Source: an uncultured bacterium (lineage in GTDB: Bacteria > Cyanobacteriota > Vampirovibrionia > Gastranaerophilales > Gastranaerophilaceae). Taken from it: 32,800 nt of DNA. The position numbers and the translations under genes are program-made. Shown here piece after piece: positions 21,156 to 26,578 of this stretch. The notes under the pieces were generated by a model, which saw only the letters and a program-made list of their open reading frames with translations, did not search any database and was not told the origin of the DNA. The stretch spans positions 1 to 32,800 of the forward strand of contig CADCNV010000009.1 in NCBI GenBank assembly GCA_902802825.1. The letters are read 5' to 3'. Position 1 is the first letter of the stretch, and each line of letters starts with the position of its first letter.

Positions 21156-21179
21156 CCCTCTCCTAAAATTAGGAGAGGG
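21156..21179. repeat. Perfect 10-bp hairpin, CCCTCTCCTA type
   Basis: CCCTCTCCTA and TAGGAGAGGG pair around AAAT. It lies beyond a complete terminator and is not needed for it. It resembles short C-run/G-run hairpins that end mobile repeats, such as those in the DUF559 insertion at 23037 and 23450. Confidence 0.5.
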
Positions 21180-22093: not shown

Positions 22094-22252
22094 AATCTGT
22101 TTCTCCTTCCGTTCTAAAATTAATAATTGTATCCGTGACACTTTTTCGATACTCAAATAATATGATATTTTTAAATATTAAACATCATATTTAGGGTGTA
22201 CATTTTTGACAGGTTTTCATGCTAAAATACATCATAAGGAGTATTGCTCTAT

Positions 22253-25200
22253 ATGTTTATTGAGGGAAGTTTAGTTTCTAATAAAACGGATATTTTAATT
22301 GATAAATATGTACAACTTTTAAACAGCGGAATCAGTGCATCAGAAATACTTGTCCTCGTTCAAAATTCGACACTCAAAAATGATTTTCAGAATAAAGTAT
22401 TGGAAAAATTAACAGTTGACTGTACTGAAAAGCTACAAATTCACTCATTTTTTTCACTTGTATACAATACCGTAAATGACAATTGGGCATTTTTAGAAGA
22501 CCGGAACGTATTTGATAATCCTGCCATTCTACCGAATTTATCAGGTCTGGAAATTTCTCAATTTATATTGAAAGACATTTTAAAAGAAGTTCCGTTTAAA
22601 GGATACAATTCAAGGATGTCATTAATTCAGCAGATTTTCAGACGTTATTCACTGATAATACAGAATAATCTTTCGCCATCGGAAGTCGATGAACGGGCAA
22701 AAATACTAAAAGAGGGATTTAGTGATGAGGCATCCCTTGCTATCAAAAAATTGTTGCGTAAAACATTGGAATTAAGGGGATTTGATTATTTAAGACAATG
22801 TTTACTATTCAATTTTATTTATAAAAATACTGACTACTTTAAAAATATAAAGTATCTTATTGTTGATGATGCAGATGAATGTACCCCGATATGCATTGAT
22901 TTTATTGAATATTTATCCAAACAACTAAACGATTTTTATATCGCAATAGATCCTCTCGGATCAAGCAGATGCGGATATTTGAGCGCAGACAAAAATAATT
23001 ATGAACGGTTAAAAAAAATCTTCAATTCTGATATTGGCCCCCTGAAAGGGGGAAATGGCTCGCAGAGCCAAAGGGGGTTATGTAAGGGTATTAGGATACT
23101 CCCATATATAAAAGATTTCTCAAGAAAAATGCGGAAGGAAATGACTCCTCAAGAATTAAAAATATGGAATTTTATTCGCAAGGAACAGTTGGGGATAAAA
23201 TTCAGACGGCAACACCCAATTGATAATAAGTATATTGCAGATTTTGCCTGCCCTGAACAAAAAATTATAATCGAAATTGACGGTTCTCAACATATAGAAT
23301 CAACAAATGATAAATACAGGACATTTTACATAGAAAACATAGGATATAGAATTGTAAGATTTTATAATAATGAGGTTGATACAAATATTGATGGGTGTAT
23401 TGAGTTTTTAAAATCTGTAATAAATGCACCCCCTACCGCCTGCGGCGACTTCCCCCTAAAAGGGGGCAGAAGTGAATCAGCTGCTATTTGCCCCCTGAAA
23501 GAGGGAAATGGCTTGCAAAACCAAAGAGGACTGGCAGCAGATAAACTTTTTGCCAATGTTGCAAACGGAGAATTTAACAAGCTTGAAAACTTTTCATACA
23601 AATCTTTTTCAAAGCGCTCACAAATGACCGAAAGTGCAATTAATAAAATAAACGAACTGCTAAAAAAGGGGGCAAAACCAAACGAAATTTCCATAATAAG
23701 CCCCGTTATTGATGATATGCTGAAATTTACCCTCAAAAACAATTTTAAAACAGTAGATTTAGTATTTCTGACAGGCAGTGAAAAACTTATACAAAATAAA
23801 TTTGTACTTGGGGCAATTACTATTCTTAAACTCTGTACGGATTTGAAAAATGGCTTAAGCGAATTTGATATAAGAGTTATTTTATCTGAGTTTTTAAAAA
23901 TTCCTATAAAATACTGTGAAAAGATACTTCAACATTTTGAACAAACAAAAGAACTTATTCAGTATAAATTTGAAGATAGTGAATATACACAAAAATACGC
24001 AAACTTCCTCAAACTTGTTCATTCATTATCAATTTCAGACAAAAAAATATCCGAACAAATAATTAATATTTATAATGAATTATTTACCCCTGAAAAAATT
24101 AATAAGAATGAAATAAATAAATTTAACTTTTTCATCAAACAAATAACAGATTTTGAAAATATTTTCGGAAAAGAATTTAATAACCGAAAGACTGATATAA
24201 TTTTACAGATCGAAAACTCCGTTATTTCGGAAAATCCATATTCTGTTCTTGAAATTAAACAAAATGACCTTGTAATTTCTACTCCGCAAAAAATTATAGA
24301 TAATCATATTCAGACAAAATATCAATTCTGGCTTGATATTTCAAGCAGCGAATGGATAAAATCAGACACCGGCCCGCTGTATAATGCTTGGGTATTCCAA
24401 AAAGATTGGGATAAAGATAGCTATACAATCGAAGATAATATAAAACTATCAGCAGATAAAAATGCCCGAGTATTGCGTAAACTCTCGTTGTGCGCATTTG
24501 AGCATATATACTGTTATTCAAGCTTATTTGATTCAAACGGAGTCGAAAATTACGGCGGCATTGAAGAATATATAGTAACAACAGAAGAGACAGAACAACA
24601 AGAAAACGAACAGAGTTTTAATATTACCCCCCGCTCCGACCAAAAGGCGGTTCTTGATTATGAAAAAGGATATATGGGAATTTCTGCCGTGCCGGGAGCA
24701 GGAAAAACCACCATCTTACTTGCACTGATAATTAAATTGCTTGATAAAGGCATTAATCCCGAAAATATTTTTGTTTTGACTTATATGGATTCTGCAGCCA
24801 GAAATTTCAGAGAACGTATTAAAAATGTCCGCAAAAATTCATCAAAAATGCCAAATATAAGCACAATACACGGTCTTGCGCTGCGGATACTGAAAGAAAA
24901 CGGGAATCACGAAAAACTCGGACTTAATGCAGATTTTGAAATCTGCGATGATTCACAAAGGAACCGAATTTTAAGAGAAATTTCTCAAAAACTCGGATTG
25001 GAACAAAAAACAGCAGAAGAATTTGACAGAGCAGTATCAACATTTAAAATGAACGGCGGAATTTTGCCAAAAAATATTACCGATGAGAAACTGAAAAAAT
25101 TTGCTTATTTTTACAAAGCATATTGTGAAAATCTGAAAAATTCCAACCTGATAGATTATGATGATATGCTAACCGGTTCTGTCAAAATTTTAGAGCAGAA

Positions 25201-26578
25201 TCCTGATATATTGGCATATTATCAAAATATTTGCATGTATTTGATTGAAGATGAAGCACAGGATTCATCTCTTATTCAGCAAAAACTGATTCGACTTTTG
25301 GGCGGGAAATACAAAAATATAATAAGGTGCGGTGATGTAAACCAATCAATTACCGCGACATTTTCAAATGCAGATGTTGAAGGTTTCAGAAAATTTATAA
25401 CAGAGAATTACAATGTGAGCATGAACTGTTCTCAAAGATGCACAAAAGATGTCTGGGCTCTTGCAAACCAACTTGTTTCGATTTCGCTGGCAAATGAAAC
25501 AAGCAAAAATGCATTTTTTGAAATGTATATGGCTCCTGTTGAAGGGAAAAATCCTGTTGAGAAAAATGCTGTTATTTCTGAAATTTTTGACACTCCACAG
25601 GAAGAAAAAAGCCAAGTATTAAAGATTATCAGAGAAACACTATCCAAACACCCCGATTACACTGTCGGAATTTTACTAAGAAATAATTATCAGGTTGAAG
25701 CGTGGCAGAATTTGATTGAAAATGCCGGATTTAAAGTTATCACAAGGAATCAGTGTCTGGCACAAAAATCTATTTTCAGGGTAATTTTTGCGGTTATGAA
25801 AATTATTTTACATCCGTTTGACAATGATAATTTAGGCGAAAATTACGATATCATTTCCGAAACAGGACGATATAAATACGGGCTCGGGACGGAAATTAAA
25901 AAATACGAAAACCCGTTTATACAACTTAATTGTGACAATTTTAATAATCAAAGTTTGGAACAATTTTACTGGGATGTAAATTATTGGGTTTCGCTATGCT
26001 ATCTTCCGCCAAATGAACTCGTAGTAAAAATCGCACAGGATTTGGGAATTATGGAATCTGAAATTGACAAATCTAATATCCACCTGATTTCTACGTTGAT
26101 TAAACGAATCTGTATTAAAAATAATTCACTTTCTTACGCCGCCGACAGACTCTCAGAACTAGCCAAACGACCAAATTTAAGCGGTTTTAAATTTTTCTCC
26201 GAAGAAGATGAAGATGACAAAAAATCCCTTCAGGGTAAAGTGCAAATCATGACAATGCACAAATCAAAAGGAGATGAATTTAATCTCGTTTTCATCCCGG
26301 AAATGAGTGAAAAAAATCTGCCGCTTACTATTGAATCAATAAACCTTAAAAATGCAGATTTCATAGAAAAAATCAGATGTCTTAATCCGAATTATAAGAA
26401 AAAATCCGATTATGAACTAAAACAGGAAATTCTTGAAGAAAATCTGCGTCTTTTGTATGTGGCAATAACAAGAGCAAAAAACCAACTGCACATAACAACA
26501 AGCACAAAAGAACAAACACGATACGGAAAACTAAAAGACTCCGAACCAAGTGTAATTTTTGAAGAATTACTGAATTAA
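22253..26578 (+). CDS. Large double UvrD-type helicase with an in-frame DUF559 insertion
   Basis: 1441 residues from ATG 22253 (AAGGAG 11 nt upstream; TTG 22244 is less likely). The C-terminal half is a complete UvrD/Rep SF1 helicase: Walker A PGAGKT (814-819), THGLALRIL-type motif as STIHGLALRIL, DEAQD (1000-1004), GDVNQSI, MTMHKSKGDEFNLVFIP and LLYVAITRAKNQ. The N-terminal half looks like a degenerate second copy: GSLVSNKTD at the Walker A position, IHSFFSLVY, and YLIVDDADE at motif II, so it is probably inactive, rather as in AddB. Residues about 261-429 are foreign (see the insertion entry). Likely role: DNA unwinding in repair or recombination. It ends 6 nt from the convergent repeat-protein gene. 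Confidence 0.85.
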   Translation: MFIEGSLVSNKTDILIDKYVQLLNSGISASEILVLVQNSTLKNDFQNKVLEKLTVDCTEKLQIHSFFSLVYNTVNDNWAFLEDRNVFDNPAILPNLSGLEISQFILKDILKEVPFKGYNSRMSLIQQIFRRYSLIIQNNLSPSEVDERAKILKEGFSDEASLAIKKLLRKTLELRGFDYLRQCLLFNFIYKNTDYFKNIKYLIVDDADECTPICIDFIEYLSKQLNDFYIAIDPLGSSRCGYLSADKNNYERLKKIFNSDIGPLKGGNGSQSQRGLCKGIRILPYIKDFSRKMRKEMTPQELKIWNFIRKEQLGIKFRRQHPIDNKYIADFACPEQKIIIEIDGSQHIESTNDKYRTFYIENIGYRIVRFYNNEVDTNIDGCIEFLKSVINAPPTACGDFPLKGGRSESAAICPLKEGNGLQNQRGLAADKLFANVANGEFNKLENFSYKSFSKRSQMTESAINKINELLKKGAKPNEISIISPVIDDMLKFTLKNNFKTVDLVFLTGSEKLIQNKFVLGAITILKLCTDLKNGLSEFDIRVILSEFLKIPIKYCEKILQHFEQTKELIQYKFEDSEYTQKYANFLKLVHSLSISDKKISEQIINIYNELFTPEKINKNEINKFNFFIKQITDFENIFGKEFNNRKTDIILQIENSVISENPYSVLEIKQNDLVISTPQKIIDNHIQTKYQFWLDISSSEWIKSDTGPLYNAWVFQKDWDKDSYTIEDNIKLSADKNARVLRKLSLCAFEHIYCYSSLFDSNGVENYGGIEEYIVTTEETEQQENEQSFNITPRSDQKAVLDYEKGYMGISAVPGAGKTTILLALIIKLLDKGINPENIFVLTYMDSAARNFRERIKNVRKNSSKMPNISTIHGLALRILKENGNHEKLGLNADFEICDDSQRNRILREISQKLGLEQKTAEEFDRAVSTFKMNGGILPKNITDEKLKKFAYFYKAYCENLKNSNLIDYDDMLTGSVKILEQNPDILAYYQNICMYLIEDEAQDSSLIQQKLIRLLGGKYKNIIRCGDVNQSITATFSNADVEGFRKFITENYNVSMNCSQRCTKDVWALANQLVSISLANETSKNAFFEMYMAPVEGKNPVEKNAVISEIFDTPQEEKSQVLKIIRETLSKHPDYTVGILLRNNYQVEAWQNLIENAGFKVITRNQCLAQKSIFRVIFAVMKIILHPFDNDNLGENYDIISETGRYKYGLGTEIKKYENPFIQLNCDNFNNQSLEQFYWDVNYWVSLCYLPPNELVVKIAQDLGIMESEIDKSNIHLISTLIKRICIKNNSLSYAADRLSELAKRPNLSGFKFFSEEDEDDKKSLQGKVQIMTMHKSKGDEFNLVFIPEMSEKNLPLTIESINLKNADFIEKIRCLNPNYKKKSDYELKQEILEENLRLLYVAITRAKNQLHITTSTKEQTRYGKLKDSEPSVIFEELLN
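23037..23079 (+). repeat. Left repeat of the DUF559 element
   Basis: Begins GCCCCCTGAAAGGGGG and contains a second small dyad, GGCTCGCAGAGCC. It matches 23490-23534 imperfectly; most differences are C-to-T or G-to-A in the right copy. Confidence 0.75.
23490..23534 (+). repeat. Right, decayed repeat of the DUF559 element
   Basis: Direct copy of 23037-23079 beginning GCCCCCTGAAAGAGGG; the inner dyad has been lost by transitions. In frame both copies encode PLK-x-GNG-x-Q-x-QRGL. Confidence 0.75.

Follow-up and report, generated by a model that had tools for sequence, protein, structure and literature searches.

The locus examined here raises the question of why a helicase gene should hold, in frame within its coding sequence, a nuclease domain set between palindromes. 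It lies in a 32,800-nucleotide stretch of DNA (the window) from a MAG related to the Gastranaerophilales, a group of gut bacteria, and the helicase is a single-copy gene in it. An earlier reading made from the sequence alone had described a 510-bp, 170-codon DUF559 segment with the frame open at both ends, and this description holds, coordinates included: the helicase frame reads through and the segment matches PF04480. The parts of the locus are as follows.

22244-26578, + strand: ORF of the host UvrD/AddA-like SF1 helicase (1444 aa), frame open throughout the insert
23030-23539, + strand: in-frame insert of 170 codons, DUF559 plus C/G-run palindromes
23028-23035, + strand: remnant of spacer s, CTGATATT, which recurs ahead of the second P(b) and yields the 'GATA' edges (repeat alignment)
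23036-23079, + strand: left palindrome P(b), GCCCCCTGAAAGGGGG-AAATGGCTCGCAGAGCCA-AAGGGGG, translated as GPLKGGNGSQSQRG
23108-23416, + strand: DUF559 nuclease domain, predicted PD-(D/E)XK type (Pfam match; the invariant E, D, E and D are present)
23428-23470, - strand: right palindrome P(a), CCCCCTACCGCCTGCGGCGACTTCCCCCTAAAAGGGGG, inverted relative to P(b)
23471-23485, + strand: spacer s, from P(a) to P(b)
23486-23529, + strand: second P(b), a direct copy of the left palindrome

The full layout is P(b)-DUF559-P(a)-s-P(b), in which inverted palindromes flank the nuclease and a third palindrome copy, direct relative to the first, lies on the 3' side. The flanking repeats reported earlier are real: C/G-run palindromes are present, and a 49-nt direct repeat at 23028 and 23481 is 86% identical. 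Inserts in the genomes G021 and G006 have the anatomy (a-s-b)-DUF559-(a-s-b), the repeats being direct, ~100 bp long and each made up of two halves in inverted orientation; in G006 the b on the right is shortened. The left-hand unit of the window copy is without its a and most of its s, which makes the two edges of the insert resemble each other: the 'GATA' edges CTGATATTG and CTGCTATTTG both come from the end of spacer s, which stands ahead of P(b) in either copy. The sequence-only reading had taken GATA for a target duplication; the repeated spacer end explains the edges best, and at the helicase we rejected a target-site duplication of the kind left by IS elements and transposons, since in sister species the a-s-b unit is complete on either side.

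The helicase itself has two halves. A Pfam search identifies active-looking UvrD-type domains at aa 799-1420, and aa 1-800 form an N-terminal degenerate UvrD-like half whose AF2 model has UvrD as its top PDB match, followed by AddB and AdnB. The insert is in this first half, after ...KNNYERLKKIFNSD. The host fold is modeled with confidence on either side of it; DUF559 forms a separate domain, and the linkers encoded by the palindromes have low confidence (pLDDT 24-30).

Among the genomes compared, all of them MAGs, the helicase was found in 45 of the 46 species of the genus, and the nuclease occupies the helicase loop in three of these (window, G021 and G006). The G024 gene has the a-s-b palindrome unit alone, in frame, that of G020 has s-b alone as an in-frame scar, and that of G025 retains a decayed trace at the insert loop; G022 and G023 have a different sequence there, and the remaining orthologues a short variable native loop. 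The segment is an insert relative to its orthologues: most are without it, which sets aside an ancestral domain common to all. The empty site predicted earlier, with NSD joined to KLFANV, is seen in no orthologue, as the native loop intervenes. The eight species in question, the window among them, form one clade of the helicase tree (91/97), in which the scar-bearing G024 is sister to G021 and G006 with their full inserts (99/99). The simplest history would be one gain followed by losses through direct-repeat recombination, each leaving an in-frame scar. This order, full insert to scar rather than the reverse, is the one favored by parsimony; the scars could in principle be pre-insertion copies of the palindrome and not relics. 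Between the window and G021, dN/dS is 0.075 at dS 0.99 for DUF559 and 0.097 at dS 1.27 for the host helicase segment, showing that insert and host are similar in age and both constrained, with the nuclease under purifying selection. Since the insert is about as old as the split between these two species, vertical descent alone accounts for the window insert within that clade.

We think it probable that the insert belongs to a Gastranaerophilales family of non-splicing, in-frame, nuclease-encoding palindromic elements that are lost by recombination to in-frame scars. Genic copies have no stop codon and are read in frame with the host gene, so they would be carried as an extra loop domain of the host protein and not be spliced out; frame preservation and the AF2 model of a separate DUF559 domain on linkers suggest that the chimera is translated as one protein. 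The nuclease may cut alleles that are empty or bear a palindrome, the element would then be copied in during repair templated by the occupied allele, and homologous recombination between the direct repeats of (a-s-b)-DUF559-(a-s-b) could delete the nuclease and leave one in-frame palindrome unit. Mobility and cleavage are steps that we infer. Of the readings proposed from the sequence alone, a selfish unit that tolerates being translated fits best, with homing and expression of the chimera taken as presumed parts of it.

The nuclease domain is well defined. PF04480 matches segment residues 27-129 with E=1.6e-31 and 108.8 bits against the Pfam curated cut-off of 20.6, and the solved structure with the best sequence match is PDB 3hrl. 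The E, D and E-x-D positions expected of a PD-(D/E)XK fold do not vary among 126 copies and are retained in the window, and these catalytic-type residues are equally invariant in genic and intergenic copies; the insert is a predicted PD-(D/E)XK-type, Vsr-like nuclease. Intact catalytic-type residues, strong purifying selection on the insert (the dN/dS of 0.075) and its presence in three related species would also suit a domesticated accessory domain, that is, a single fusion kept as a useful helicase-nuclease chimera comparable to AddAB or RecBCD. We regard this as unlikely, however, given that sister species without the nuclease keep in-frame palindrome scars, that an unrelated DUF559 subfamily sits in the same helicase loop of other genera, and that the element family is found in a kinase, a methyltransferase, a GTPase and a peptidase, in which a nuclease makes no obvious sense.

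The arrangement is recurrent and not a one-off, as the palindromic element family would predict. The genus has 78 strong DUF559 copies, of which 22 are embedded in frame in a host ORF, the hosts being M14 carboxypeptidase (13 copies), PrmA (4), the helicase (3), a DNA methyltransferase (1) and a flavoprotein (1). It was thus only partly right that such elements usually sit between genes, as the sequence-only reading had it, because these 22 are genic. Across the order, 286 genomes were sampled and 108 have DUF559 matches, with loci chosen at this level for long frames and so not a measure of the genic share; further hosts here, by NCBIfam identity, are PriA, IspE, PrmA, HydF, HydE (at its C terminus) and the helicase of other genera. 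In-frame insertions occupy fixed loops of at least eight unrelated host genes: PriA (restart of replication), IspE (isoprenoid synthesis), PrmA, HydF, M14 peptidase, DNA methyltransferase, flavoprotein and helicase. The PriA site is directly ahead of the Walker A segment (GVTASGKT), and PriA of G024 and G025 has a palindrome-only scar at this site. At the PrmA site the insert is full in four cases, several genes have an in-frame scar of palindrome alone, and ~30 are cleanly empty (AKENAxKNxVECxFEL). The window genome itself has a palindrome-only in-frame scar in ispE (contig C37), at the loop that holds the nuclease in other species. The 43-bp repeat noted earlier has relatives elsewhere in the genome, this ispE copy being one, and repeat and DUF559 occur as a unit at other loci.

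Several further arrangements were observed alongside these. The ispE gene of the window genome appears to have, in addition to its C/G-run palindrome, an in-frame insert that is a repeat of a different type, CHCEEFNNKILRGKILCHSEQSVESENFTPL (L006, ~1180-1290, C37). In G076 a single 577-aa IspE frame (L305/L365) has two DUF559 domains, one upstream of the enzyme and one inside it. Beyond the 22 internal copies, DUF559 precedes a CCA-adding-enzyme-like protein in one fused frame at L079 (G026) and L081 (G019). Contig C7 of the window genome holds a second DUF559 copy (L001), which lies between genes, has a start and a stop codon of its own and is associated with a palindrome family other than that of the insert.

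The palindromes might instead be non-autonomous, RPE- or MITE-like repeats moved by unknown machinery, with DUF559 a passenger or a captured defence or repair nuclease. Pattern and DNA searches, from which the genome-wide counts derive, found many palindromes standing alone in both genic and intergenic places, and their orientation relative to DUF559 varies (L084 compared with other M14 copies, and G014 compared with the window), both of which this alternative accommodates. However, in 111 of the 126 DUF559 copies the inverted-repeat match between the two flanks scores higher than the 99th percentile obtained with shuffled flanks, so that matched inverted palindromes bracket most copies, and in the helicase and flavoprotein pair the nuclease clade and the palindrome family go together. 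We judge non-autonomous palindromes to be as improbable as domestication, and favor an element that includes its nuclease. Dispersed palindromes lying in frame in unrelated genes are, as such, an RPE-like trait. Palindromes of the window family were seen within long open frames at L204 (G022), L213 (G024) and L223 (G020), with >300 aa of the frame to their left and >110 aa to their right. An intergenic hairpin at 21156-21179 of the window, CCCTCTCCTAAAATTAGGAGAGGG, is similar to a palindrome that accompanies a different DUF559 family (L102, G024).

The nuclease phylogeny bears on how the sites were occupied. Built on an alignment of few columns that leaves many forks unresolved, the tree of 126 copies groups by host gene, requiring 16 changes over 12 host groups as opposed to 61 in shuffles. 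The copy inside the G014 flavoprotein is nearest to that of the window (100/99), and the two have the same palindrome family, indicating that one element family has entered two unrelated genes. The inserts in the helicases of other genera (L226, L227, L269 and L271) belong to a different DUF559 subfamily, and starred branches force two changes. With helicase inserts from two unrelated subfamilies, the same loop has been invaded at least twice independently. In those genera a unit X is found alone in the helicase of L300 and L298, as opposed to X-DUF559-X in L271 and L226, respectively. A phylogeny that tracks the insertion site, together with empty alleles in relatives, is characteristic of homing elements, and both are found here.

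Host-gene-specific clades, of which the monophyletic PriA clade of 15 is an example, are also intein-like, and might suggest an unrecognised intein, intron or translational-bypass element that is removed to give a mature helicase without the insert. We consider this very improbable. An intein was ruled out, as Pfam and NCBIfam searches gave no match to a Hint or splicing domain and just 67 residues (26 + 41) lie outside DUF559; a recognisable group I or II intron was ruled out by an Rfam search with no match at E<=1 and by the host frame being open throughout. Neither bypass nor RNA splicing would need the frame to be open in full inserts and scars alike. An assembly or binning artefact, to which MAGs are in general open, is extremely improbable, since such inserts are present in assemblies from independent projects (RUG, RGIG, BRZ) and the species differ by synonymous divergence with their frames open.

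What is new here is the combination of in-frame palindromic elements with a nuclease. It is tempting, though we would put it at somewhat under even chances, to see in this a further class of homing, in which autonomous nuclease-encoding palindromic elements settle in frame at fixed loops of conserved genes, persist translated and unspliced, and decay to palindromic scars. The origin of in-frame palindromes inside bacterial proteins has been puzzling since the description of Rickettsia palindromic elements (RPEs), and the RPE accounts, in the portions consulted, name no mobilising gene; if true, the proposal would offer an engine for mobilising 'protein-coding palindromes'. Splicing, moreover, would not be needed for an intein-like lifestyle where the insertion site is a tolerant loop. 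Mobilisation is testable, since full elements, scars and empty sites coexist in related species and in several host genes. A practical consequence is that annotation will mistake such chimeras for genuine multidomain proteins.

The open literature, in the parts available and with most subscription journals outside its coverage, yielded no description of palindrome-flanked or in-frame DUF559 copies, and nothing closer to these elements than RPEs and the yeast WHO elements. By analogy, the closest named relatives are the Rickettsia palindromic elements and homing elements. RPEs and Wolbachia palindromic elements are described as short palindromes that lie in frame in unrelated genes, recur at the same orthologue loci and are tolerated in the product (PMC3767692, PMC10969869). 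The likeness is one of behavior, the in-frame palindromic lifestyle, and we claim no homology to named RPE families; RPEs are repeats of 100-150 bp, with a nuclease unmentioned in the portions consulted, whereas the palindromes described here belong to an unrelated group of bacteria and enclose a conserved nuclease. Like inteins and their homing endonucleases, the elements place a nuclease in frame in conserved genes, sometimes near functional motifs (in PriA, before GVTASGKT), and have a nuclease phylogeny that follows the insertion site and relatives with empty sites; unlike inteins, they are without a Hint or splicing domain, are inserted in variable loops and leave scars that persist in frame. 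WHO elements are of homing type, are linked to a host gene and involve no protein splicing; they lie downstream of FBA1 and replace its 3' end (PMC7282813), whereas the element here interrupts the gene and is read through, and its nuclease family is unrelated. Caulobacter VsrA, a DUF559 protein, is reported to be needed for a DNA damage response, with a proposed role in mismatch repair (PMC12907096), which suggests by analogy that members of the family can act on DNA. VsrA is a protein of its own; the domain that it shares with PDB 3hrl and with the elements described here is found, in the latter, inside other proteins and between palindromes.
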